DNA of 58,584 nucleotides, taken from the NCBI GenBank assembly GCA_001803635.1, contig MHDU01000022.1, forward strand, positions 1 through 58,584. The letters run 5' to 3'. The position numbers and the translations under genes are program-made. Source of the DNA: Nitrospirae bacterium GWB2_47_37 (GTDB lineage Bacteria; Nitrospirota; Thermodesulfovibrionia; Thermodesulfovibrionales; Dissulfurispiraceae). The notes below the pieces were generated by a model. It was given only the letters and a program-made list of their open reading frames with translations, searched no databases and was not told where the DNA came from. Below, in pieces: positions 10,987-23,865 of the stretch. Within the stretch, counting starts at the first letter, position 1, and each line of letters opens with the position of its first letter.

Positions 10987-12171
10987 TTACTCCCTCACTC
11001 CGATATATTCTTTAAATGTTTTTACTTTTCCGGTCTTTGCGGTTTCCGCCAGCTCGTTCAACACGAGTTCCGCGTGTTCAGGCAGATAGTCCCTGCCGCC
11101 CAATCCGTATATCTTGTTTATCAGGATAGGCCTTTCTTTGTAAGGATACAGGCTCGCTGCGATGTCTGTGAAAAGCGGGCCGTAAGACGCTCCGAACGCA
11201 TCGGCCCTGTCGAGCACGCAGACCGCCTTAAGATGCTTCAACGCCTCTCCCACCTCTTCGTAAGGGAACGGCCTGTAGAGCCTCGGCTTTAAAAGACCCG
11301 CCTTTATTCCTTTGTTTCTGAACTCATCTATGACATCCTTCGATGTTCCGGCGGCCGAATTCAAGATCACAAAGGCTATCTCGGCGTCTTCAAGCCTGTA
11401 CGTCTCAAAGAGCCCGTATTTCCTGCCTGAAATCTTCTCGAAGTCTTTTGCCGTATCGAGAACTACCTTAGTCACCTTCGACATGACATCGGCATGAGCC
11501 CTTCTGAACTCCATGTAATAATCGGGAAGTATCAACGGGCCGTAGCTTACCGGATGCTCTATATCGAGGAGCGGATTTGTAGTTTTGAACTCCCCTGCGA
11601 AATTTTTGACCGCCTCGTCGTCGAGATACTCCATCCTCTCTATGGAATGGCTTATTATGAATCCGTCCATGCATGTCATTGCCGGAAGCCTTATGTCCAG
11701 GTGTTCGGCTATGCGGAAAGCCTGTATCGTATTATCGTAGGCCTCCTGAGCGTTTTCAGACCAGAGTTGTATCCATCCGCAGTCCCTCGCGCCCATTCCA
11801 TCGGAGTGGTCTCCGTGAATGTTCAGAGGAGCGGAAAGCGCCCTGTTCACCAACGCCATAACGATTGGAAGCCTTGAACCGGAGGCGATGAAAAGGATTT
11901 CCCACATCAGCGCAAGCCCCTGTGACGACGTAGCGGTCATAACCCTGCCGCCGGCGGCCGATGCGCCTATGCAGGCGCTCATCGCGCTGTGTTCGCTCTC
12001 CACGAGTATCATCTCGGTCTTTACAAGCCCGTTTGACACGAAGCTTGTGAACCTCTGCATTATGTCCGTAGCAGGGGTTATAGGATATGCGGCGCTCACG
12101 TCCGGATTGACCTGCCTTAAGGCATTGGCAACCGCCTCATTTCCGGTAACGGCAACTATTTCCTGACCCAT
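10987..12171 (-). CDS. porA: Pyruvate:ferredoxin oxidoreductase alpha subunit
   Basis: The 394-residue alpha subunit carries the pyrimidine-binding half of the TPP site. The N-terminal GNEAVANALRQVNPDVSAAYPITPATDIMQ contains the family YPITP motif, followed by VESEHSAMSACIGASAAGGRV and TATSSQGLALMWE. Later segments (LDRADAFGASYGPL, IYGLGGRDYLPEH) match PorA rather than 2-oxoglutarate or indolepyruvate homologues. It begins one base into the porD stop codon region, showing translational coupling, and ends two bases before porB. Confidence 0.95.
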   Translation of the reverse strand: MGQEIVAVTGNEAVANALRQVNPDVSAAYPITPATDIMQRFTSFVSNGLVKTEMILVESEHSAMSACIGASAAGGRVMTATSSQGLALMWEILFIASGSRLPIVMALVNRALSAPLNIHGDHSDGMGARDCGWIQLWSENAQEAYDNTIQAFRIAEHLDIRLPAMTCMDGFIISHSIERMEYLDDEAVKNFAGEFKTTNPLLDIEHPVSYGPLILPDYYMEFRRAHADVMSKVTKVVLDTAKDFEKISGRKYGLFETYRLEDAEIAFVILNSAAGTSKDVIDEFRNKGIKAGLLKPRLYRPFPYEEVGEALKHLKAVCVLDRADAFGASYGPLFTDIAASLYPYKERPILINKIYGLGGRDYLPEHAELVLNELAETAKTGKVKTFKEYIGVRE

Positions 12172-12464
12172 TATTTCCCCTCCTCTTCCATGACTATCGC
12201 CTTATTTCCCTTTTTACCGGGACATTCGAGCGCGCAGATACCGCAGCCCTTGCAGTAGTCGTAATCGAATTCCGCCCTCTTGCCGTCCTTAGCCTTAATA
12301 GCCATATCCGGGCAATAAATCCAGCAGAACATGCACTGGATGCAGTTTTCTTCTATCCATCTAGGTTTAAACGCCCTCCACGAGCCTGTCTTGAACTTTA
12401 ACGCGCTGCCCGCTTCGGTTACGACAGCGCCCGGCTTAAGGTCTTTCCATCCTTTCAGTTTCAT
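12171..12464 (-). CDS. porD: Pyruvate:ferredoxin oxidoreductase delta subunit, 2x[4Fe-4S]
   Basis: This 97-residue ferredoxin-like subunit has two classic four-cysteine motifs, CIQCMFCWIYCP and CKGCGICALECPG, each of which should ligate a [4Fe-4S] cluster and pass electrons from the TPP site to external ferredoxin. It lies between gamma and alpha with short overlaps on both sides (4 bases with porC, 1 base with porA). Confidence 0.95.
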   Translation of the reverse strand: MKLKGWKDLKPGAVVTEAGSALKFKTGSWRAFKPRWIEENCIQCMFCWIYCPDMAIKAKDGKRAEFDYDYCKGCGICALECPGKKGNKAIVMEEEGK

Positions 12465-13036
12465 CCTTCCCTTACCTCCTCATAACCCCTCTTTACAGCC
12501 TCAAGGTTGCCGTCTATAATCTTCTGGGAAAATTTTTTCCCGAAGCTCTTTTTCACGTCCTCGAGCATCGCATCGAGGCTGACGATGCCGGAAACCTTTG
12601 CGAGCACCCCGACCATAGGAGAGTTCGGCAGCGGCCTCCCTATATTTTCGATGGCTATCTTTGTAGCGTCTACTGTAAAGACCCTTTGGGTAGGCTTAGC
12701 CTTCAATTTCTCCCTTAATTCCTTCGGATCCTTCGCGGAGTTAACGATAAAGATGGCGTCGTCCGGAGCGCCTTCCGTTACATCTATGCCGTCCAGCAGC
12801 GTCGCGTCTACAATCGCGACTATATTAGGCTTAAGCACAGGACAGTGCATCCTTAGTTCCTTCGAACTTACCCTGTTGTAAGCCCTCAGCGGAGCGCCCG
12901 ACCTTTCGGGACCGTATTCCGGAAATGCCTGCACGTACCGCCCGCCGCTCAAACACGCGTCGGCAAAAACCTTTGCTGCGGTAACGGTGCCCTGGCCTCC
13001 CCTGCCGTGCCATCTTATCTCCAAAGTCTCAGCCAT
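12461..13036 (-). CDS. porC: Pyruvate:ferredoxin oxidoreductase gamma subunit
   Basis: The 191-residue gamma subunit begins with the typical IRWHGRGGQGTVTAAKVFADAC, then PEYGPERSGAPLRAYNR and MVGVLAKVSGIVS near the C-terminus. It is the first gene of the porCDAB operon and has a promoter with good boxes just upstream. The order gamma-delta-alpha-beta is the common arrangement in anaerobic bacteria and archaea. Confidence 0.94.
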   Translation of the reverse strand: MAETLEIRWHGRGGQGTVTAAKVFADACLSGGRYVQAFPEYGPERSGAPLRAYNRVSSKELRMHCPVLKPNIVAIVDATLLDGIDVTEGAPDDAIFIVNSAKDPKELREKLKAKPTQRVFTVDATKIAIENIGRPLPNSPMVGVLAKVSGIVSLDAMLEDVKKSFGKKFSQKIIDGNLEAVKRGYEEVREG

Positions 13037-13073
13037 CTCTTCCCTCCTGATAATTTCTGAACGTAGGAATATT

Positions 13074-13103
13074 ATTTTAGCGGGATTTCGACTTTTTATT
13101 CAA
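13074..13103 (-). promoter_or_regulatory. Promoter of the por operon
   Basis: Minus-strand TTGAAT (13098-13103) and TAAAAT (13074-13079) lie 18 bases apart, some 35 bases before the porC start, which has an AGGAGG site. The AT-rich 60 bases further upstream contain a small TTAAT-AAA-ATTAA palindrome (13120-13132) that I cannot assign to a regulator. Confidence 0.5.
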
Positions 13104-13196
13104 TAGATTTAAGCCCTGATTAATAAAATTAATACCTAAGTTAAGCAATTCTAATCCGGAAATATATGTCGGGCGCTGCGAAAAGACTTTAAACGA

Positions 13197-13886
13197 TTAC
13201 GGATTTACTATCGCCTCTAATGCCTTTAAATTCACTATTACAATCCTGCCGTCTTTTTCGCCGATGTATCCCGATTTTTTGAACTTGCTCATGACCCTGA
13301 TGGAAGTCTCCACCGTCGTGCCGACCATTTCGGCGATATCCTGCTTGGTTAGCCTCATGTTTATAACCGTCGTCTTATCCGCCTTCTTTTCGCCGGCCTT
13401 GTCGGCAAGTTTCATGAGAAGGGCGGCAATCCGCGACTCCACTCTTTCGAGGGCGATATTTTTCAGCGTATCGTGAAACTCCCTTATCCTGTCTCCTAAG
13501 TTGGCCGTTATGTCGTACATTACGTTGGGAAACCTGTCAATGATCTTAAGGAGATTAGGCCGCGACATCTTGATAATGCCTGAATCCTCCATCGCAACGG
13601 CGTTGGCCGGATACGGGAACCCCTTCAGAACCGCGAACCCTCCGAAAAAATCGGGCGGGGATATCAATTCGATTATTATCTCCCTGCCGTCTTGGGAGAG
13701 CTTAGTAATTTTCACTTTGCCGTTAAGGAGTATGTAAAACCAATCGGGGGGATCGCCTTCGGAGAATATTTCATGCTTCTTCTTAAAACTCTCTTCGATC
13801 AAATACGGCCGGATCTCTTTGATCTCGTCATCGCTGAGATTGGAAAAGATGGGTATTTTTTTCAGGTCTTTCAACTCATCGCTCAT
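13197..13886 (-). CDS. Crp/Fnr-family transcriptional regulator without cysteines
   Basis: The 229-residue protein has the cyclic-nucleotide-binding beta roll (IFSEGDPPDWFYILLNGKVKI, FFGGFAVLKGFPYPANAVA), a long dimerisation helix and a winged helix-turn-helix (LTKQDIAEMVGTTVETSIRVMSKF). There is no cysteine anywhere, so it cannot carry an FNR-type Fe-S cluster. The effector could be a nucleotide, haem or small metabolite. I prefer ATG 13886 over the TTG codon just before it. It follows the tRNA-Pro gene on the same strand and lies about 160 bases before the por promoter, so por regulation by it is possible but unproven. Confidence 0.85.
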   Translation of the reverse strand: MSDELKDLKKIPIFSNLSDDEIKEIRPYLIEESFKKKHEIFSEGDPPDWFYILLNGKVKITKLSQDGREIIIELISPPDFFGGFAVLKGFPYPANAVAMEDSGIIKMSRPNLLKIIDRFPNVMYDITANLGDRIREFHDTLKNIALERVESRIAALLMKLADKAGEKKADKTTVINMRLTKQDIAEMVGTTVETSIRVMSKFKKSGYIGEKDGRIVIVNLKALEAIVNP

Positions 13887-13916
13887 CAATCGTTATCCGT
13901 TGCCGAAAAAAAATAA

Positions 13917-13991
13917 TCGGGGCGATCCGATTCGAACGGACGACCTCTCGCACCCCAAGCGAGTGCGCTATCCAGACTGCGCTACGCCCCG
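13917..13991 (-). tRNA. tRNA-Pro (anticodon GGG)
   Basis: The minus strand folds into a complete cloverleaf of 75 bases: acceptor CGGGGCG/CGCCCCG, D arm GCGC/GCGC, anticodon stem CTCGC/GCGAG around the loop TTGGGGT (anticodon GGG, reading CCC and CCU), and T arm GTCCG/CGGAT with TTCGAAT loop. The CCA end is not encoded. The first ten bases overlap the end of the merR-like reading frame, which takes its stop codon from the tRNA sequence. Confidence 0.95.
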
Positions 13992-14404
13992 AAATGTTGA
14001 CTAAGAATCTTCCTGAGCCTCTCTTTTACCGTATTCAACACGCTTGCGGCGTCGGATACGAGAGGCCCTCCTTTTTTATCTGTCGCCGTTTCGGTAATTT
14101 CTCCGGAAACGGCCGTTGTTTCTCCACATTCCACATTGCCGGTCAGCTTGCGCCTTACACCGTCAATAGTATACTTGTCCTCATAGAGCAATTTTTTGAT
14201 CTGCAGTATCAGATCGACATCTTTCTTCGTGTAAACACGCTGGCCCGATTTGCTTTTTCTCGGGCTCAGAAACGGGAATTCCGTTTCCCAGTACCTGAGG
14301 ACATAAGACTCAACGCCTACTACTCTGCTCACTTCTCCTATTTTATAGAAAAGCTTTTCGGGGAAAAGTCTAAGCGGCTGCGGCGATCCTAATGCGTCGT
14401 GCAT
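13982..14404 (-). CDS. MerR-family regulator overlapping tRNA-Pro
   Basis: The 140-residue protein has a MerR winged helix at about residues 18-80 (FYKIGEVSRVVGVESYVLRYWE, then SGQRVYTKKDVDLILQIKKLL). It is the small MerR-type protein often found right after ihfA in Gram-negative genomes; its effector is unknown and no metal-binding cysteine cluster is present. The C-terminus ILSQHFGA followed by TAG runs ten bases into the tRNA-Pro gene, so the last three codons and the stop lie in or next to the 5-prime acceptor strand of the tRNA. Confidence 0.88.
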   Translation of the reverse strand: MHDALGSPQPLRLFPEKLFYKIGEVSRVVGVESYVLRYWETEFPFLSPRKSKSGQRVYTKKDVDLILQIKKLLYEDKYTIDGVRRKLTGNVECGETTAVSGEITETATDKKGGPLVSDAASVLNTVKERLRKILSQHFGA

Positions 14405-14415
14405 TTTAACGCTCT

Positions 14416-14694
14416 CTACGTCTTCTCGATAACTTCCTTAAGCTGGTCGCTCGCCTTGAATGTCACGACCCTCCGTGGCGTAATCTCCACCTCTTCCTTC
14501 GTCTTCGGGTTTCTCCCGACGCGGGCGCCTTTCTTCCTTACGTTAAATGTCCCGAAGCCGGAAATCTTGATCGATTCTCCGGCGATCAATGTCTGCTTGA
14601 TAGTGTCGAAAACATTTTCCACTATATCCTGCGCCTCGTTCTTCGGAAGCCCTACCCTCTCAAACACGAGATTTACGATATCAGCCTTTGTCAT
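14416..14694 (-). CDS. ihfA: Integration host factor alpha / HU-family DNA-bending protein
   Basis: The 92-residue protein has the HU/IHF fold: MTKADIVNLVFERVGLPKNEA at the N-terminus, the ESIKISGFGTFNVRKKGARVGRNPKT beta arm with the DNA-intercalating proline region, and a C-terminal helix. The GRNPKTKEEVEI arm and the position directly before a merR-like gene favour IhfA over HU. It binds and bends DNA in recombination, replication and transcription. A strong promoter is seen upstream, and merR and tRNA-Pro probably share its transcript. Confidence 0.9.
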   Translation of the reverse strand: MTKADIVNLVFERVGLPKNEAQDIVENVFDTIKQTLIAGESIKISGFGTFNVRKKGARVGRNPKTKEEVEITPRRVVTFKASDQLKEVIEKT

Positions 14695-14742
14695 ATCTCC
14701 CTCTTAAAAATCTAAAAATGAACTTTATTGAATTTCATCAAT

Positions 14743-14771
14743 TTTATATTACTATCTTGCCCAAATGTCAA
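14743..14771 (-). promoter_or_regulatory. Promoter of ihfA-merR-tRNA-Pro
   Basis: Minus-strand TTGACA (14766-14771) and TATAAA (14743-14748) are separated by 17 bases. The mRNA leader would be about 40 bases. The 170-base region is shared with the divergent dksA-like gene. Confidence 0.6.
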
Positions 14772-14864
14772 GTATTTTTCGCTTTGCCTTGTTTGACTAT
14801 CTTCAATATTTTTTGTTATCGTATTAAATCTTAATTACAAATTTTCAATTCAGAGGCTCGAAAT

Positions 14865-15266
14865 ATGAAAGGCAAAGGCAAAACAAAAGCGGATAAAAAC
14901 CTCTCGCAGAAAGAGGAAAGGCTTCAGGGGATAAGGAAGAATCTCCTTCACCAGAAAGAGCTTCTTCTCTCGGAAGCGGGAATAGCATTAAACACCCTCC
15001 CGGACGAAACCCTATTTCCGGAACTCGGCGATCAGGCGTCCGCGGATATAGACAGGAATTTCATGCTGAGGCTGAAGGGAAGGGAAAGACAGTTGCTCAA
15101 AAAAATAGACGAGGCCCTCGAAAAAATAGAAAGCGGCAACTACGGGATCTGCGATATCTGCGGCGAAGAGATAAATATAAAGAGGCTCGAGGCGCGGCCC
15201 GTGACTACCATGTGCATAGAGTGCAAGACCGAGCAGGAAGAGGAAGAAAAACTGAGAGAAAAATAA
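14865..15266 (+). CDS. DksA/TraR-family zinc-finger protein
   Basis: The 133-residue protein has a coiled-coil N-terminal part and the C4 zinc finger CDICGEEINIKRLEARP...CIECK characteristic of DksA/TraR proteins, which enter the RNA polymerase secondary channel and modulate initiation with ppGpp. The acidic pair typical of DksA at the coiled-coil tip is represented by GDQASADID. A very basic N-terminus (KGKGKTKADKN) extends the fold. It ends six bases before the convergent dppC stop. It could equally be a DksA paralogue. Confidence 0.88.
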   Translation: MKGKGKTKADKNLSQKEERLQGIRKNLLHQKELLLSEAGIALNTLPDETLFPELGDQASADIDRNFMLRLKGRERQLLKKIDEALEKIESGNYGICDICGEEINIKRLEARPVTTMCIECKTEQEEEEKLREK

Positions 15267-15272
15267 AGCGGT

Positions 15273-16112
15273 CTACAGCCTGTCGCCCGTTGCCCCCAGC
15301 CTGTCTTTTAACGATTCCCCCGCCATATTAAAACAAAGCGCCGTTATGAATATCGCCAGTCCCGGAAATATTACCATCCACGGCTCCGTAAGAACATACG
15401 CCCTGTTTGCGCTTATCATGGAACCCCATGTGGGAGCCGGCGGCTGAGCGCCGAGGCCTAAAAAACTCAGGGTAGCTTCCGTAAGGACAAAACCCCCCAT
15501 CTTAATTCCCATCATTATAAGGCCGAGAGGAACGCAAAGCGGCGCGATGTGCAGCAGGAGTATCCGCAGGTCTCCGCATCCGACCGCGCGCGCGGCATCC
15601 ACGAAAGGCATATCCCTCAGGGTCAACACATGGCCCCTTATTAACCGCGCAAATGACGTCCAGCTTACCGTCGATATGGCGATCATAACCGTATATATTC
15701 CGGGCGGCAAGACCACGGAAATCGCTATCGCCAATAACAGGGAAGGAAAAGAGAGGATAAAATCGGTTGCCGACATCAAAACGGTATCGAGCCTTCCGCC
15801 GAAATACCCGGAAACGATCCCTACGAAAAATCCTATAAAGGCCGAAACAAAGGCAGCGGCAACCGCGACACCGATGGATGTCTTTGCGCCGTAAATCACC
15901 CTTGAAAACACGTCCCTGCCTTTGCTGTCGGTGCCGAAAGGATGGTTCATGCCCGGCGATTCTTTTATGGAATCGAGGTCTATTTTATTCGGGGCATAAA
16001 TAGATAAAAACGGCGCGACAATAGATATAACAAATAAGAACATGATTATGCCTGCGGGTAAAAGCAACTTTAAATTATTTCCGGACTCCGGACTCTTAAT
16101 TTTTTCCGGCAT
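15273..16112 (-). CDS. Peptide ABC transporter permease, DppC type
   Basis: The 279-residue membrane protein matches DppC/OppC: HPFGTDSKGRDVFSRVIYGAKTS is the family signature near residue 55, followed by about five further helices and the EAA loop (DAARAVGCGDLRILLLHIAPL), which contacts the ATPase. It overlaps dppB by 17 bases and is the last gene of an eight-gene minus-strand operon. The N-terminus contains a small tandem repeat, CCGGACT twice at 16081-16094, read as SPES. No ATP-binding subunit is encoded in the operon. Confidence 0.92.
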   Translation of the reverse strand: MPEKIKSPESGNNLKLLLPAGIIMFLFVISIVAPFLSIYAPNKIDLDSIKESPGMNHPFGTDSKGRDVFSRVIYGAKTSIGVAVAAAFVSAFIGFFVGIVSGYFGGRLDTVLMSATDFILSFPSLLLAIAISVVLPPGIYTVMIAISTVSWTSFARLIRGHVLTLRDMPFVDAARAVGCGDLRILLLHIAPLCVPLGLIMMGIKMGGFVLTEATLSFLGLGAQPPAPTWGSMISANRAYVLTEPWMVIFPGLAIFITALCFNMAGESLKDRLGATGDRL

Positions 16113-17028
16113 CGAGCCTTATCCTCGGGTCGAGAAAGTGATAAGCTATATCCGTGATCAGATTTACAAGCACGAAAACCACGGTGCCGGTGATCACGCA
16201 TCCTAATATCACAGGGTAATCCCTCTTAATTATCCCATCCATCGTAAACCTGCCCAGACCGTCCCATCCGAATATGGTCTCCGTAACTACGGCGCCGTTA
16301 AGATAACTGCCGAAATCGAGGCCTATGATGGTGACGATCGGGATAATCGCATTCTTCAAAACATGAACCGCGCTTATATTAAGAGAAGAAAGCCCCTTGG
16401 CCTTTGCCGTATTTATATAAGGCATTCTCAAAATATCCAAAACAGTTATCCTCGTAATCCTCGCAAGGGTAGCGGCAGCCGGAATGGACAATACCAAAGC
16501 CGGCAATACGAGGAATCTCGCATCTCCGGTGCCGGACGGCGGGAACAGCTTCAGCTTAAGGCTCAAAAGGAGCATTATCATTATAGCGCTCCAGAATACG
16601 GGTATGCTCAATCCGGCGAGCGAAACGGCATTCACGCATTTATCGATAAAACCGTCCTTTCTATAAGCGGCCATAAAGCCGAGCGCTGTGCCCGCCGGAA
16701 CGGCTATAAGCATGGCGGCAAACGCAAGCACGATCGTATTCGGGAATTTCGCGGTAATGTCCTTGAGCACGTCCCTATTGGTGTAATACGACGTTCCGAA
16801 ATTCCCTTGCAGGAGCAGCTTCAGGTAGCCGGCGTACTGACGTATAAAGCCTTTATCGATACCCATCTCCTTTTTTATATTCTCTATGATTTCCGGATGG
16901 GCCCTTTCTCCCGCAAGGCTCAATACAGGATCGCCCGGAAGCGCCTTAATAAGAAAAAACGCGCACAGCGTTATCCCGAATAAAAGAGGGATCAGGAGCA
17001 GGAGCCTTTTTAGAATATATGACTTAAT
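16096..17028 (-). CDS. Peptide ABC transporter permease, DppB type, probable ATT start
   Basis: The DppB family normally starts with a first membrane helix KRLLLLIPLLFGITL, and that helix is present here upstream of the first conventional start (TTG at 16923). Between it and the preceding stop (17050-17052) there is no ATG, GTG or TTG in frame. The only well-placed start is ATT at 17026-17028, six bases after GGGAGG, giving MKSYILKRLLLL and a normal 310-residue protein with the ALPGDPV segment intact. The EAA loop (NTAKAKGLSSLNISAVHVLKNAI) and the C-terminal DPRIRLD are also present. If TTG 16923 were used the protein would lose helix 1. Confidence 0.85.
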   Translation of the reverse strand: MKSYILKRLLLLIPLLFGITLCAFFLIKALPGDPVLSLAGERAHPEIIENIKKEMGIDKGFIRQYAGYLKLLLQGNFGTSYYTNRDVLKDITAKFPNTIVLAFAAMLIAVPAGTALGFMAAYRKDGFIDKCVNAVSLAGLSIPVFWSAIMIMLLLSLKLKLFPPSGTGDARFLVLPALVLSIPAAATLARITRITVLDILRMPYINTAKAKGLSSLNISAVHVLKNAIIPIVTIIGLDFGSYLNGAVVTETIFGWDGLGRFTMDGIIKRDYPVILGCVITGTVVFVLVNLITDIAYHFLDPRIRLDAGKN

Positions 17029-17049
17029 GCCTGACCTCCCGGAAAGAAT

Positions 17050-17877
17050 TCACCCGCACAGAGCATCGGCCTGTTTTTTTAAAGCCCTCACGTTATGGGC
17101 ATCGAGGCCGCTCCTCTTAATGAAAACGCTCTCATCCATGCCGGCTATGTCCTGTACAAGGATTATATCGTTATAGAAAAGGTTTTCGAGAGAATTTCTT
17201 TTTACGGACGAAAGTACGGTTATGGGATAAAGCCTTTTTGCCTCTATCATCTTTTCGAGGCCGGCCTCATGAGGGTACTTCCAGCTTACTATTTTAAGTC
17301 CCACGCATTCGGCGTATTTTATCGCGTCGGAAGTGCAGCGCGTGTTGGTTACAAGCCATCCCTGATCGACTCTATCGCCGTTAGATTCAAAGGCCTTCCT
17401 TATATCCATAAATCTCGAATGGACGTAAAGCGCGACCTTCACATCCGCCGGTTTCCCGCCGTTGCTGTGATATTTGCACTCTATGACAAAACGCTCATCG
17501 CCTTTACCGGCAAAGACATCCACTTCATGAGTTACGCACCAGCCTTCTATAATACGGTTCATCTCTACCGAGTAACCGTAATCTTTCAGGATTCTACCGA
17601 AGTACTTTTCAAACGGATAGCCCGAAGGGCCGAGGTCGGCTATCGCTTTTTTTATGGAATACCTCATGCCCGAGGCATGGTTGTACTGCCTTAACAGCCT
17701 CTTTGCCAGTTTAAAGATATGCCTTGTGTGAGTGGAGGGCGCAATCTGTGTTTCGACTTTCTGAGCTATATCCAGAGCCGCTTCTTCCGATGCCCCCGAC
17801 CGTATAAGGGAATCGACAAGCTTCCGCCTGTCGAACTCCTCCATCAGCCCTGATGCTTTTATGATCATTGTCGCCAT
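17050..17877 (-). CDS. ATP-cone domain fused to a PD-(D/E)XK nuclease-like domain
   Basis: The 275-residue protein has an N-terminal ATP-cone (about 4-85: IIKASGLMEEFDRRKLVDSL, then IKKAIADLGP), the nucleotide-sensing module of NrdR and class I reductases. It is followed by a restriction-endonuclease-like fold with Glu118/Asp120 (HEVDVF) and the Glu133-x-Lys135 pair (FVIECKYH), matching PD-(D/E)XK and Mrr-type enzymes. A helical C-terminal region with LDAHNVRALKKQADAL follows. The active residues are intact. It sits between the peptide-binding lipoprotein and permease genes with gaps of about 25 bases, so it is transcribed with them. Its cellular target is unknown; nucleotide-controlled DNA cleavage is inference. 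Confidence 0.78.
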   Translation of the reverse strand: MATMIIKASGLMEEFDRRKLVDSLIRSGASEEAALDIAQKVETQIAPSTHTRHIFKLAKRLLRQYNHASGMRYSIKKAIADLGPSGYPFEKYFGRILKDYGYSVEMNRIIEGWCVTHEVDVFAGKGDERFVIECKYHSNGGKPADVKVALYVHSRFMDIRKAFESNGDRVDQGWLVTNTRCTSDAIKYAECVGLKIVSWKYPHEAGLEKMIEAKRLYPITVLSSVKRNSLENLFYNDIILVQDIAGMDESVFIKRSGLDAHNVRALKKQADALCG

Positions 17878-17903
17878 CGAAAGGATTTTACACTATTTTA
17901 GGG

Positions 17904-19442
17904 TTACCTTTCTATCCGTACATCCATGCCCTTATCCATTGTATAAATCGGGTATACCCTATAACCTTTTATCCGGGGCCGGATCACAAGAAAGTCCGTC
18001 CTGTGCCAGAAAGAGACCCATGGGGATTCCTTTATAATAATCTCTTCCGCTTTTTTATAAAATCCGTTCCTGTCTTTTTCATTAAGGGCGTATTGCCCCT
18101 GTTCTATCAGAGAATCCGCTTTCTTATTCGCATATCTTGTCCTGTTGCCTGCCGGGCCGAAATTAGAGGAATGGAAAAGCGGAAACAGAAAATTTTCCGG
18201 ATCCGGATAATCCGCCCACCAGCTCAGCCAGAACATATCGGCCTCTCCCTTGTTAAGCGCTTCTTTATAGGCGCTCCATTCAAGCTGCTTTATATCGACG
18301 GCAATGCCTGCCGACGAAAGATAAGATTGAATAATCTCCGCGAGGTCGACCACGTCCTGATCCGCGGTGACATACATCTTTACCTTTATTCCGGACAAGC
18401 CTTCTCTGTTTATTATCGCCTTAGCCTTCAGGGGATCATACTCCGAACCTTCCCGATCATTATCTTCTATCTTCCACTTTCTGAGCAGATCAGGCACAGG
18501 GCCTTGCGCCGGCCTCCCCCTGTTTTCATAAAATGTCTTGAGGATCTTTTTCCTGTCTATCGCATACGAGACGGCCCTTCTAAGGGTTGCATTATCAAAA
18601 GGAGGCCTCGATGAGTTCATTCCTAAATAGTATGTATTAAGGCCTTCCATTGAAATTATAAGTTTATTCCATTTTTCGTCCTTTCTGAATTTCGAGTATG
18701 CCGAGGCAGGGAGTGAAATAACATCGATATTTCCGAGTTCGAATTCGGTAACGGCCGTTAAATCTTCGGGGATTATTTTATAAACTATACCTTTGATTTT
18801 TGCCTTATCGCCGAAATAATTTTCATTCCTCTCAAGAATCAGCTCCCTGTTATGAAGCCATTTTTTTAAGATAAACGGCCCTGTGCTTTTATCGATGTCT
18901 TCTTTCGGAATAACATATGCGGGCGTCATTGTAAGCATGCTCAAAAACGGCGAAAACGGCCTCTTGAGCCTAATCTCAAAGGTATAGCCGTCTATCACCT
19001 TGAAACCTTTAACTTCATGCGCTGTCCCTTTTTGAAATTCTTTCGCTCCCTCCACCTTGTCAAAGACCCATGTATTTGGCGATTTTGTTTTGAGATTCAG
19101 GACGCGCTCAAAGGAATACTTGAAATCTTGCGACTTAACCTTCCGACCGTTTATAAAACTGACTCCTTTTTTAAGATAGAACCTGTATCTCAGGCCGTCC
19201 TTCGACATCTCCCATTTTTCAGCAATATCCGAAACTATTTCGAGGCCGGCATTCAATCTGACGAGACCGTTAAAAAGCTTTGCGGCAATGGACGCGCCGG
19301 ACACATCGGTAATCAGCGCGGGATCGAGGGTAGTGGGATTCGCATTCAACCTGTAATAAACATAGCCCTCAAGGCGGCTTGAGGGCGAGCAGGATACGAG
19401 CAAAAAAATTGTAATGACAACGGAAATAGCTTTGTTTCCCAT
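17904..19442 (-). CDS. Peptide-binding lipoprotein, DppA/OppA type
   Basis: The 512-residue protein belongs to ABC substrate-binding family 5. A lipoprotein signal ends in the lipobox LLVSC (cysteine about residue 18), followed by YYRLNANPTTLDPALITDV, KWEMSKDGLRYRFYLKKGVSF, the signature LRRAVSYAIDRKKIL and a C-terminal WLSWWADYPDPENFL segment. It would capture oligopeptides or related compounds outside the inner membrane for the DppB/DppC permease encoded two genes downstream. Neighbouring D-aminoacylase and gamma-glutamyl hydrolase genes hint at peptides with D-residues or isopeptide bonds. Confidence 0.92.
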   Translation of the reverse strand: MGNKAISVVITIFLLVSCSPSSRLEGYVYYRLNANPTTLDPALITDVSGASIAAKLFNGLVRLNAGLEIVSDIAEKWEMSKDGLRYRFYLKKGVSFINGRKVKSQDFKYSFERVLNLKTKSPNTWVFDKVEGAKEFQKGTAHEVKGFKVIDGYTFEIRLKRPFSPFLSMLTMTPAYVIPKEDIDKSTGPFILKKWLHNRELILERNENYFGDKAKIKGIVYKIIPEDLTAVTEFELGNIDVISLPASAYSKFRKDEKWNKLIISMEGLNTYYLGMNSSRPPFDNATLRRAVSYAIDRKKILKTFYENRGRPAQGPVPDLLRKWKIEDNDREGSEYDPLKAKAIINREGLSGIKVKMYVTADQDVVDLAEIIQSYLSSAGIAVDIKQLEWSAYKEALNKGEADMFWLSWWADYPDPENFLFPLFHSSNFGPAGNRTRYANKKADSLIEQGQYALNEKDRNGFYKKAEEIIIKESPWVSFWHRTDFLVIRPRIKGYRVYPIYTMDKGMDVRIER

Positions 19443-19463
19443 TATAACAATTGGACTATTGGG

Positions 19464-20585
19464 TCAAAATCTCAGAAACGCCCCTATCCCTCCCGCGTCC
19501 ATAAGCTTTTTGCTGTCGGCGACCACCTCCACCGGAGCATTCTGCTGTATCGCTTTTTGTCCGGCAAGGTCTACCATGTAATCGACCGCCTCTATCTTGC
19601 CGTTGCAGAACGGACATGAATCAACTTTCTGAACACTTAAATGTCCGCATGCGCTGCAACTATATCCGTTTGCCTTGTAATCCTTAATAAAGACGAGTTT
19701 CATTACCCGTTGTTCCTGAAGGGCATTTACGACATTATCAAGCCCGATCACGGCATTCTCGTTCTTCAATGCCTTGGCAATAAGGCTATCGACCGTCTCC
19801 TCCTCTTTTCTCCTCTCATGTTCCGAGACGATAGGCTCCACCTTTTTTAATACCTCGTCCGGCTTCGCGAACATTTCTACCTTTGCCGTGCCGATAATCT
19901 TATCGAGGATCGTTTTATGAAGCATGCCTTTAACCATCGAGACCGCTTCATCGGAGCCGCCGATTATCAGCCTTCCGACATATTCGCCTCCGATAAAAGA
20001 TTCGAGTTTATTCACGACGTCCTTGAGGTGCATGCCCACATGATAGTCTATGTGCCTTTCATAATGGTTCTGCGACAACGCAAACCATCCTCCCTTCTTG
20101 TGCTTGCCCGGAATATCCGCCGTATGGACTTCCCCGTATTCGACTATTTCTCCCAAATGAACCGTAAATATCCGCGCGGATTCTTTATCGACAAGCAAAA
20201 GAACGTATCTCCTGTAATTGTCGAGCACATCCATCAGGGGCTTTATATAAGGCATTTTATCGACTATTAATTCGTTCTTTACAGGAACGCTGAGGTTATA
20301 CTCCCTCCAAAAGGAATTACCTGCGGAGCTTAAAAGCGCCAATCCTTTTTTAAAGAGCCTTTTATTTGAAAGGACATAATTTTCGATCTTTTCGAGGTCG
20401 TTTTTAACGGTCTTATATATGGTTTTATCGAGCGTTTCAACGGTATTTTTCATCATATTTTTGAAATGCACTACGTAATCGCCTTTTTTGTTAAAAATAG
20501 GATCTACGTTGAGATAAAGACCGACAAAATAACCGTTCCTGCCTTCCATCTCTGCGATTTCGCGTAACTCTTCCCTGTTAAGCAT
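19464..20585 (-). CDS. Bacterial archaeo-eukaryotic release factor-like protein (baeRF) with zinc ribbon
   Basis: The 373-residue protein resembles the baeRF group related to eRF1, aRF1, Vms1 and the ribosome-rescue factors. Residues about 1-155 form the N-terminal domain (RNGYFVGLYLNVDP, YVLLLVDKESARIF), and GGWFALSQNHYERH at 165-178 sits where eRF1-type proteins have a GGQ loop. The middle domain (VGRLIIGGSDEAVSMVKGML) is Pelota-like. A zinc ribbon CSACGH...CPFCNG lies near 310-325. The family is predicted to act on stalled ribosomes or peptidyl-tRNA; biochemical proof for this type is lacking as far as I know. Its start overlaps the AI-2E gene stop by eight bases. Confidence 0.75.
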   Translation of the reverse strand: MLNREELREIAEMEGRNGYFVGLYLNVDPIFNKKGDYVVHFKNMMKNTVETLDKTIYKTVKNDLEKIENYVLSNKRLFKKGLALLSSAGNSFWREYNLSVPVKNELIVDKMPYIKPLMDVLDNYRRYVLLLVDKESARIFTVHLGEIVEYGEVHTADIPGKHKKGGWFALSQNHYERHIDYHVGMHLKDVVNKLESFIGGEYVGRLIIGGSDEAVSMVKGMLHKTILDKIIGTAKVEMFAKPDEVLKKVEPIVSEHERRKEEETVDSLIAKALKNENAVIGLDNVVNALQEQRVMKLVFIKDYKANGYSCSACGHLSVQKVDSCPFCNGKIEAVDYMVDLAGQKAIQQNAPVEVVADSKKLMDAGGIGAFLRF

Positions 20586-21624
20586 TTTTTCCTCCTTCGA
20601 TGTTCCTGAATATTTCTATTACCGATACGAAAATAGCCATCACCAGAGGCCCCGCAATAAGACCGATCAATCCGAAAAGCTTTATCCCGCCGAGAACGCT
20701 GAAGAAGATTATGAGGATAGGCATCTTTGTCCTGCCGCCTATTATGATAGGCTTCACGATATTGTCGATAAGGCTTATACCGAATATGCCGATAATCGCG
20801 AGTATAACGCCTTTTAACGCGAATCCTTTAATAAATAGATATCCTGCGGCAGGCACCCAGACCGCGGCGGCGCCGACTAAGGGTATAAACGAAGCTACCG
20901 CTGTGGAAAATCCCCAGAAGACGGGAGACGGTACTCCGAGAAAATAGTAGGTAACGCCCCCGATAATACCCTGTGCCACGGCAACCAGTACGCCTCCGTA
21001 AACCGTGGACACTATGATATCCCTTATCTGGACTTCAAGCCTCTCCTTTTGTTCTTCCGGAAAAGGCATATAATCATGTGTCTTTCTCAAAAATTGCGGG
21101 GCGTCTTTAAGCAGAAAGAATATGGAAAATACCATGAACACGAAATTTACCGCGCCTGTTACGATGTCTCCGACCCCTCCGGCTATCCGGACGACTATCT
21201 CCTTGCCCAACCTTGAGATATTGCCGGAAAGGGTGCTTTTCATCTCTTCTTCGGTCATATTCATAAAGGAGAGTATTCCGTTGACAACGCCTTTGATACG
21301 CGGGCTGTCCAACAGGTCGGTAAGGGTCTCGAATTTCCCTTCCTTTAAGTATTCCGATATGTGAGTCAACTCATTCACGAGCAAAAATGAGAGATATGAA
21401 AACGGTCCTATAATAATTACGGTTATTATAATGATCGTGAGCAGCGACGCAATCGCCTTCACCATAATAAACCTCAGAATAAAAAAATAAACCGGATAAA
21501 AGACGATTGTGAGGATAACCGCCCACGCGATAGGAGACAGGAAAGGCTTGAATATCTGATAGCTCAGATAACCCAGGGCCGCCGCCAGAAACGTTAATGC
21601 GATAAAATAAAATCTATTTACCAT
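20578..21624 (-). CDS. AI-2E family (PerM/YdiK-like) membrane protein
   Basis: The 348-residue polytopic protein has the AI-2E transporter architecture: two N-terminal helices (KPFLSPIAWAVILTIVFYPVY), a soluble central stretch with SPRIKGVVNGIL, then helices containing VAVAQGIIGGVTYYFLGVPSPVFWG, SFIPLVGAAAVWVPAA and IIGGRTKMPILIIFFSVLGGIKLFGLIGLIAGPL, which are family hallmarks. Functions in the family range from AI-2 export to ion antiport. It overlaps genes on both sides (11 and 8 bases), so it is an integral operon member. Confidence 0.88.
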   Translation of the reverse strand: MVNRFYFIALTFLAAALGYLSYQIFKPFLSPIAWAVILTIVFYPVYFFILRFIMVKAIASLLTIIIITVIIIGPFSYLSFLLVNELTHISEYLKEGKFETLTDLLDSPRIKGVVNGILSFMNMTEEEMKSTLSGNISRLGKEIVVRIAGGVGDIVTGAVNFVFMVFSIFFLLKDAPQFLRKTHDYMPFPEEQKERLEVQIRDIIVSTVYGGVLVAVAQGIIGGVTYYFLGVPSPVFWGFSTAVASFIPLVGAAAVWVPAAGYLFIKGFALKGVILAIIGIFGISLIDNIVKPIIIGGRTKMPILIIFFSVLGGIKLFGLIGLIAGPLVMAIFVSVIEIFRNIEGGKNA

Positions 21625-22297
21625 TGCCTTCCGCCCCCTTTATAAATGCCTCGAATATCCCTAATGAAAGTTTATCATAAAAAATGCGTTCCGGATGCCA
21701 TTGAACTCCGATAAGAAAATTATAGTCCTTTTTATAGATTCCTTCTACTATTCCGTCATCGGACAAGGCAAACGCCTCGAGCCCATCGGCAAGCGCTTTT
21801 ACCGCCTGATGATGGGTGGAATTTACAGTATCGGCTGAAGATTGAGGGATGAAAGATAAAGACCGGCTGATTTGTACGGCATGCCGGCCGGTTTTATGGT
21901 CTGATGCGCCTTTAATTTGAGCGCCTATATCCTGATAAAGAGTTCCTCCTAATGCGACATTGATAAGCTGCATGCCGTAGCAGATTCCTAAAATGGATTT
22001 ATTTCTCTTAATAACTTCTTTAAAGAGGGCAAGCTCAAAATCGCTCCTTTCTTTTTTTACAAATTTCAATGTTTCTAAGGGGACGGAAATCTCTTCGCCG
22101 TAATATTCGGGTAAGAGGTCATTGCCTCCCGGCAATAAAAGACCGTCGATCAAATCCGCAATTTGCGGGATATTATCTGCCGTCGGAGGCAGTATCAAAG
22201 GCAGGCCGCCGCATTTCTCGACGGCTGAGACATAATCCTGCCTGAGCTTGAATAAATCTCCGTCAATGTCCGATGTTATGCCGATGATAGGTTTCAC
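21614..22297 (-). CDS. Class I glutamine amidotransferase-like peptidase C26 (PuuD-like)
   Basis: The 227-residue protein is a gamma-glutamyl hydrolase-type enzyme. The N-terminus (PIIGITSDID) and GLLLPGGNDLLPEYYGE are typical, the nucleophile Cys is in LGICYGMQLINVALGGTLYQD, and the catalytic His-Glu pair is in GVQWHPERIF. PuuD cleaves gamma-glutamyl-GABA; relatives cleave gamma-Glu bonds of folates and peptides. Its start overlaps the D-aminoacylase stop by four bases (ATGA), so the two are made together, consistent with breakdown of unusual peptides. Confidence 0.88.
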   Translation of the reverse strand: MKPIIGITSDIDGDLFKLRQDYVSAVEKCGGLPLILPPTADNIPQIADLIDGLLLPGGNDLLPEYYGEEISVPLETLKFVKKERSDFELALFKEVIKRNKSILGICYGMQLINVALGGTLYQDIGAQIKGASDHKTGRHAVQISRSLSFIPQSSADTVNSTHHQAVKALADGLEAFALSDDGIVEGIYKKDYNFLIGVQWHPERIFYDKLSLGIFEAFIKGAEGNGK

Positions 22298-23865
22298 ACC
22301 AAAATTCTTCCTGACCGGCTTCCGGTGAACTCGCCGTTTCTGAATGTAAGGGTTCCGTTTACGAATACATAATTTATTCCTTCTGCCATTTTGAAAGGCT
22401 CTTTAAATGTAGCTTTATCGTTGATTTTTTCGTAATCGAATACTGTAATATCGGCATAAAAACCTTCTTTTATCATGCCGCGCTCTTTAAGGCTAAATGT
22501 TTCCGCAGGAAGAGAGGTCATTTTTCTTACCGCCTCCGAAAGAGGCATCAGATTTTCATCCCTCACATATTTGCCGATAAATCTCGGGAAGCTGCCGAAT
22601 CCCCTCGGATGCGGCTTGCCGCTGCGCGTAATTCCGGAAAACGACCTCACCGAGCTGTCCGAGCCTATCATCGCATAAGGCAGTGATAAGAATTTCCTGA
22701 GATTATCCTCGTTCATCGAAAAGAATATCGCCCCTGCCCTCGCCTTCTCATCGATAATAATCTCAAAAAGGGCGTCTATAGGTTTCTTGGAGAGTTTTAA
22801 AGAGATATCAAAAATATTCTCTCCCTCCATCCATTTATTTTTCTCCAGAGCGACCGATGATACGAAAATACCCTTCCAGTAATCTTCGTTCTTAATGCCT
22901 ATCTCTTCTTTAATCTTTTTGGCTGCAGCCTTATCTTTAAGCCTTCTTAATTCCTCGTCTACCCCTCCGTCATAAACCCATGAAGGCAGAACCGTATCGA
23001 GGTCGGTGCTTGCGGCGATATAAGGATACCTGTCGCATGTTAATTTAATGCCGCTGTTTCTCGACTCTTCCATCAATTCTATTGCCTCATCAATCTTCCC
23101 CCAGTTTCTCTCGCCCGCAGTCTTAACATGAGATATATGCACTTTTATCCCTGCGCCATTCCCAATATTTATAACCTCTTTAATAGCCTCGATAAGCGCA
23201 TCTCCCTCGCTCCTCATGTGCGAGGCGTAAATGGGTGATGAGTGATGGGTGATGAGTGAAGAGCATAATTCAATCAATTCTTCCGTATTTGAATAAACGC
23301 CCGGAGGATAGATTAATCCGGTCGAAATGCCCTTTGCTCCCTGTTCCACGGCATCGGATAAAAACCGCTTCATTCCATTCATTGCATCTTCATCAGGCCG
23401 GATATCTTTATACCCGATTACCGAAGCCCTGATATTTCCATGCCCGCATAATGTCGCAAAATTTATTGCAATGCCTTTATTTCTGAGAATATCGAAATAT
23501 TCCCTGAATGTTGTCCATCGTTCTTTTATCCCAAGTTCTTTTAAATCTTCCTCCCTGCGCTCTCTCGCCTCGTTATAAAGCGGCGCGGCTGAAAGTCCGC
23601 AATTTCCGTTTATCTCCGTAGTTACTCCCTGCGAAAGTTTTCCCTCGGCCCTTCCGTCCGCTAAGATCGTGAATTCCGAATGAGCGTGAGTGTCTATAAA
23701 GCCGGGACATATTATGAGGCCTTTTGCATCGAAGATTTCTTTGGCAGAAAAGCATTCATTTCCTATATAGACAATCCTGTCATCTTTTACGCCTATATTT
23801 GTTTCAACAGGCTCAGAGCCGCTGCCGTCGAAAACAAGCCCGTTTTTTATAAAATAATCAAACAC
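22294..23865 (-). CDS. N-acyl-D-amino-acid deacylase (D-aminoacylase), amidohydrolase family
   Basis: The 523-residue enzyme has the amidohydrolase metal site: PGFIDTHAHSEF at about 55-66, later YASHMRSEGD, HISHVKTAGERNW and IGSDSSVRS with the catalytic Asp. The C-terminus FKEPFKMAEGINYVFVNGTLTFRNGEF is typical of D-aminoacylases, which release D-amino acids from N-acylated forms. The segment SSLITHHSSPIYASH is encoded partly by a perfect 14-base tandem repeat and looks like a tolerated insertion. It is the first gene of the eight-gene operon, with a promoter divergent from yceD. Confidence 0.88.
   Translation of the reverse strand: MFDYFIKNGLVFDGSGSEPVETNIGVKDDRIVYIGNECFSAKEIFDAKGLIICPGFIDTHAHSEFTILADGRAEGKLSQGVTTEINGNCGLSAAPLYNEARERREEDLKELGIKERWTTFREYFDILRNKGIAINFATLCGHGNIRASVIGYKDIRPDEDAMNGMKRFLSDAVEQGAKGISTGLIYPPGVYSNTEELIELCSSLITHHSSPIYASHMRSEGDALIEAIKEVINIGNGAGIKVHISHVKTAGERNWGKIDEAIELMEESRNSGIKLTCDRYPYIAASTDLDTVLPSWVYDGGVDEELRRLKDKAAAKKIKEEIGIKNEDYWKGIFVSSVALEKNKWMEGENIFDISLKLSKKPIDALFEIIIDEKARAGAIFFSMNEDNLRKFLSLPYAMIGSDSSVRSFSGITRSGKPHPRGFGSFPRFIGKYVRDENLMPLSEAVRKMTSLPAETFSLKERGMIKEGFYADITVFDYEKINDKATFKEPFKMAEGINYVFVNGTLTFRNGEFTGSRSGRILV
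23231..23258 (-). repeat. 14-base tandem duplication inside the D-aminoacylase frame
   Basis: ATGGGTGATGAGTG occurs twice end to end (23231-23244 and 23245-23258). Because 14 is not a multiple of three the copies are read in different frames, yet the gene stays open and encodes ITHHSSP. Confidence 0.75.

Follow-up and report, generated by a model that had tools for sequence, protein, structure and literature searches.

Described ligand-gated nucleases include the CARF-gated proteins Card1 and Can2, in which a ligand-sensing domain is placed in front of a PD-(D/E)XK domain; the ligand of CARF is the cyclic oligoadenylate of type III CRISPR. ATP-cones represent another kind of sensor, and work on RNR describes nucleotide binding to them as setting the oligomeric state. 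The closest homologue of known structure of the protein studied here is AF1548 of Archaeoglobus fulgidus (PDB 1y88), for which a 2007 report (PMC1821046) predicts a restriction-type endonuclease with residues D38, E51 and K53. We analysed a gene of this kind in a stretch of 58,584 nucleotides (hereafter the window, at its full length) from Nitrospirae bacterium GWB2_47_37. The nuclease gene, at positions 17050-17877, belongs to the AF1548 family, which is known from sequence databases and uncharacterised; no paper on a fusion between an ATP-cone and a nuclease was found in the open-access papers searched.

Domain layout and conservation

The gene and the domains of its product are as follows.

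17050..17877, (-) strand: ATP-cone / PD-(D/E)XK (Mrr-type) / AF1548-like_C protein, 275 amino acids, ATG start (ORF and Pfam)
17692..17868, (-) strand: predicted ATP-cone domain, residues 4-62 (Pfam, conservation and profile comparison)
17305..17625, (-) strand: Mrr_cat nuclease domain, residues 85-191, with the catalytic residues E118, D120, E133 and K135 (Pfam and conservation)
17059..17229, (-) strand: AF1548-like C-terminal domain, residues 217-273 (Pfam)

In the window protein, the Mrr_cat and AF1548-like_C domains exceeded their respective Pfam cut-offs (28.7 bits for a cut-off of 21, and 37.3 bits for a cut-off of 23.9), and Pfam matched them in 30/30 and 29/30 of the family members scanned. 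The AF1548-like_C domain, which points to the solved homologue 1y88, was, like that homologue, absent from the first-pass annotation. Residues 93-271 align with AF1548 with E values of 3.8e-33 for the single sequence and 5.4e-49 for the family profile, and D120, E133 and K135 of the window protein agree with D38, E51 and K53 of AF1548 both in the D...E-x-K motif and in its spacing. An AlphaFold model of the nuclease built from 4 sequences was poor (pLDDT 45).

E118, D120, E133 and K135 are invariant in the 49 homologues of our 51-row alignment that are complete over the nuclease domain; the two other rows are the disrupted copy of genome G022 and that of G323, which a contig end truncates. The first-pass annotation had proposed an ATP-cone fused to an intact PD-(D/E)XK site, and its residue numbering proved correct and the fusion was supported; loss of the catalytic residues in homologues, which it had named as evidence against its reading, did not occur in any of the 49. 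The nuclease gene is under purifying selection, with dN/dS about 0.1 (0.10-0.13 within the genus, 0.07-0.11 in three other pairs), similar to that of the oppA gene within the genus (0.09-0.10).

The ATP-cone (PF03477) scored 19.2 bits in the window protein, under the Pfam cut-off of 25.8. Across the family, it was matched by Pfam at E<=0.01 in 22 of 30 members (best value 8.9e-9), and a profile-profile comparison against 9 ATP-cones taken from relatives gave an E value of 8.6e-5 over 41 columns, with a probability of just 60%. Judged from such profile matches, the predicted cone is weakly assigned for the window protein alone, and the assignment holds across the family. K7, K19, Y73 and K76 are invariant in all 51 rows, G10 is kept in 50, and E13 and T51 in 49 each; the cone fold probably extends as far as residue 82 or so, taking in Y73 and K76. 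Residues 8-9 are AS in the window protein versus KD or RD in NrdR-type cones, and nucleotide binding by the predicted cone may therefore be altered or lost. The Pfam profile does not separate non-functional ATP-cones, according to a published analysis (PMC4390871). The weak score and the changed positions 8-9 would both suit a cone that has ceased to sense nucleotides and merely holds subunits together, making the protein an ungated nuclease. We regard this as quite unlikely, as the conservation of the seven cone residues exceeds the needs of a tether.

Position of the gene in the opp operon

The nuclease gene is flanked on the same strand by genes for a peptide uptake system.

17904..19442, (-) strand: oppA-type peptide/nickel-binding lipoprotein (SBP_bac_5), upstream of the nuclease gene (Pfam)
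16096..17028, (-) strand: oppB-type permease, start codon probably ATT at 17028-17026 (Pfam and comparison with relatives)
15273..16112, (-) strand: oppC-type permease (Pfam)
19464..20585, (-) strand: baeRF family 10 (bacterial eRF1-like) protein, its gene conserved next to oppA, on the upstream side, in many relatives (Pfam and synteny)

The gap between the nuclease gene and oppA is 26 bases, and that to oppB is 21 bases when the ATT at 17028 is taken as the oppB start, in agreement with the earlier description of a gene lying between the binding lipoprotein and the permeases with gaps of 20-30 bases. This ATT, a rare start codon just downstream of a GGAGG, aligns with ATG in genomes G007 and G008 and with TTG in G041 and G042. 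It is conserved in G000, G001, G002 and G012, and G013 likewise has ATT, preceded by an ATG at a distance of four codons.

In the closed genome G007, of the same family, which is syntenic with window positions 12171-23865 and whose left flank in common with the window extends to TAGTGTAAAATC, 25 bases separate oppA from oppB and no gene intervenes. Among 20 oppA loci compared, the nuclease gene occupies the junction in 3, which are all 3 genomes of the genus, and oppA is followed by oppB without the nuclease gene in 6 (G007, G008, G012, G013, G041 and G042). Ten loci had no oppB in the stretch examined, including that of G003, where oppA is followed by a 309-residue ORF without Pfam match and then by the nuclease gene. 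In G008 and G042, the nuclease gene is present at another place in the genome and the oppA-oppB pair is intact.

The empty oppA-oppB site in relatives indicates that the nuclease gene was inserted into a pre-existing operon. It is a passenger in the opp operon of one genus, without a lasting link, as the first-pass annotation had surmised in describing a device carried in a host operon; the placement it had left unexplained is accounted for by this genus-level insertion. Placement in an uptake operon is ordinary by itself, and the opp operon would provide the nuclease with co-expression only, not with a function. A role as a functional part of peptide uptake has in its favour the short-gap position between oppA and oppB in 3/3 genomes of the genus. 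With empty junctions in 6 of the 20 related loci, the nuclease elsewhere in G008 and G042, and 45 of 49 homologues lacking this oppA gene among their neighbours up to three ORFs away, such a role is hardly credible, and we rejected a functional tie to peptide uptake on the grounds of the empty site. Carriage by a transposon or prophage was also set aside: the left flank is common to the window and G007 as described above, and inspection of the junction by eye revealed no duplication or terminal repeat.

The opp locus has taken in other genes besides the nuclease gene. In one of the 20 loci (G006; L124 3009-3854), the oppA-oppB junction harbours a 281-residue ORF resembling an MBL-fold protein, named from sequence, which indicates that this junction received different genes in different genera. 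In the sister genome G001, of the same genus as the window, oppA is immediately preceded on its upstream side by a Wadjet type I system and a toxin-like ORF (L172 5723-7177, L041 1175-6666). PADLOC identified JetB, JetC and JetD in this system, with a 484-residue ORF in place of JetA.

Distribution and neighbourhoods of the family

Matches to the family profile were obtained in 51 of 395 genomes of the phylum Nitrospirota, and two of them (G069 and G246), both short and weak, were discarded. The nuclease is thus present in 49/395 genomes, one copy each, all in one class; among the relatives searched, it was found in 12 of 60. Two plasmid homologues come from Bacteroidota and Chlamydiota, respectively. 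The family extends at least to Nitrospirota, Bacteroidota, Chlamydiota and, in a form that lacks the cone, Archaea. Stops and a frame change break the single copy of G022 (L072) into two pieces, which suggests that the gene is dispensable in that genome.

Our tree covers 49 of the 51 rows, with L072 and L116 left out. Of the smaller row sets, A1 comprises 30 of 35 loci (L046, L051, L054, L055 and L072 omitted; rows L044 and L047 begin some codons late), and another comprises 34 of 35, omitting the disrupted L072. Families f6, f7, f11, f13 and f15 largely cluster in the tree, the window's family f1 is scattered, and many inner branches are weak. This pattern suggests mainly vertical descent with losses and probably some transfer. 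The nuclease gene is a stand-alone, accessory, chromosomal gene of patchy distribution.

No constant partner was found among 51 nuclease loci. Neighbours within three ORFs include a gene that we take, from a motif, to encode a cysteine synthase-like protein (7 loci), a LOG-family gene (6), a gene identified by its sequence as FKBP-like (5) and oppA (4). All seven cysteine synthase-like neighbours belong to family f13, in which the same neighbour is kept across three genera. A Pfam analysis of 129 non-redundant neighbours yielded a spread of housekeeping families. A consistent association with DNA repair, the other finding that the first-pass annotation had held to count against its reading, was not seen among these partnerless loci; that no partner gene indicates DNA repair also counts against the mechanism proposed below.

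The LOG-family gene (PF03641) adjoins the nuclease gene at L049, L062, L063, L068, L111 and L113, in families f11 and f15. It is directly upstream on the same strand in five of these loci and divergent in L111. On the plasmids, the nuclease gene is part of an operon (L019 1972-6597, L020 7995-12602) in which it is followed by genes for a beta-CASP RNase-type protein, a member of the thymidine/AMP phosphorylase family and a PRPP synthetase.

These neighbourhoods could reflect an enzyme of nucleic-acid catabolism that frees nucleotides for phosphorylase/PRPP-type scavenging, with ATP gating as an energy signal. Both plasmid homologues, of Pontibacter and Criblamydia, share the order nuclease, beta-CASP, phosphorylase, ribose-phosphate pyrophosphokinase, and a gene for a LOG-family nucleotide hydrolase is nearby in 6/49 Nitrospirota loci. 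However, the latter figure is a raw count, and the genomes already possess 1-3 LOG genes each (12 genomes checked). Furthermore, an orthologue of the phosphorylase (54-56% identity) was present in just 5 of the 395 genomes of the phylum, which do not overlap with the 49 that carry the nuclease. Among plasmids, 115 records contain the phosphorylase, and the nuclease was found in the same two of these and was absent from 113. We consider the catabolic role quite unlikely. The nucleotide-scavenging module was likewise rejected as a general partner, being present in two plasmids and absent from the nuclease-containing genomes of the phylum. An 'ATPase' of Methylophaga encoded beside a phosphorylase operon was unrelated to the ATP-cone nuclease by pairwise BLAST.

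The first-pass annotation had also suggested a defence device and a survey of homologues' neighbours for defence islands. No link to such islands emerged from the neighbours. In a PADLOC scan of the 129 non-redundant nearest neighbours alone, 29 families were matched at E<=1e-10, nearly all from one member, and the defence-island hypothesis was rejected on this basis; the matches include mads_2/3/8 and Csx16. A restriction-modification pair was also discarded, as no methyltransferase was seen directly adjoining the nuclease gene. The best PADLOC-DB match of the window protein itself was CARF_PDDEXK (E 0.0028), with no convincing system model, and comparison with phage-protein families gave no convincing match (best E 0.0067). 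Pfam scans detected no CARF family in the window protein or in 30 members; the Card1 endonuclease domain was matched in 7 of these 30, and the comparison with Can2 (7bdv) gave an E value of 0.14.

The nuclease might nonetheless act as a solitary anti-phage enzyme, in the manner of type IV restriction, firing when infection shifts nucleotide pools. The Mrr-type nuclease domain, the patchy presence in the phylum, the weak likeness to ligand-gated defence nucleases just described, the Wadjet system upstream of oppA in G001 and a fragment of type I restriction near homologue L050 all speak for it. Against it, searches of phages and viral contigs returned zero records of a homologue, the neighbours are mostly housekeeping genes, one neighbour is retained across three genera of f13, and the PADLOC matches are nearly all single. 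The suggestion of a defence device was thus not borne out, and we view anti-phage activity as unlikely.

Proposed mechanism and comparison with known systems

The protein is most likely a nucleotide-gated DNA nuclease, whose gating and role we infer. That it is an accessory AF1548-type PD-(D/E)XK nuclease with its activity set by the N-terminal cone appears to us an evenly balanced proposition. The predicted ATP-cone would bind ATP or dATP and might switch the nuclease, in the manner of RNR and NrdR, through a change of oligomeric state, or via access to the nuclease domain. The C-terminal domain, which we take to be helix-hairpin-helix-like, would hold DNA. Cutting would be directed at the cell's own DNA where it is damaged, stalled or surplus, and would track changes in nucleotide pools. 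In a bolder version that we advance tentatively, as somewhat doubtful, an RNR/NrdR-type sensor would serve as the trigger of a DNA nuclease, with the ATP/dATP balance switching cutting directly and without a partner protein. If the cone gates cutting, a single protein would link nucleotide pools to DNA cleavage, and the cell, or its plasmids, would tie the destruction or turnover of DNA to these pools. The family combines a perfectly kept catalytic site with a nuclease part of solved structure.

Two proteins of the same three-part layout are annotated in RefSeq as 'ATP cone domain-containing protein' and have all catalytic residues (Pontibacter WP_237151220.1, 41% identity; Criblamydia WP_176454803.1, 37%). 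Unlike the window protein, they are encoded on plasmids, where their operon also contains the beta-CASP, phosphorylase and PRPP synthetase genes, and E13 of the cone is replaced in them. AF1548 itself (PF22357 and a restriction-endonuclease-like domain) has in common the D...E-x-K site and the C-terminal domain, whereas its solved chain of 199 residues is devoid of the ATP-cone that precedes them in the window protein. With Mrr and type IV restriction enzymes, the window protein shares the Mrr_cat domain; it has the ATP-cone and AF1548_C domains in addition, and Pfam did not detect the Mrr N-terminal domain in it. The RNR and NrdR cones harbour the motif K-x-x-G-x-x-E-x-F-x-x-x-K at the same spacing as in the window protein, whose predicted cone is joined to a nuclease and has A-S in place of the K-D or R-D that follows the first lysine. 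Finally, Card1 and Can2 possess a related PD-(D/E)XK domain, by weak sequence kinship, and this kinship fits a predicted layout of a sensor in front of a nuclease, in which the window protein has an ATP-cone in place of CARF and no CRISPR context was seen.
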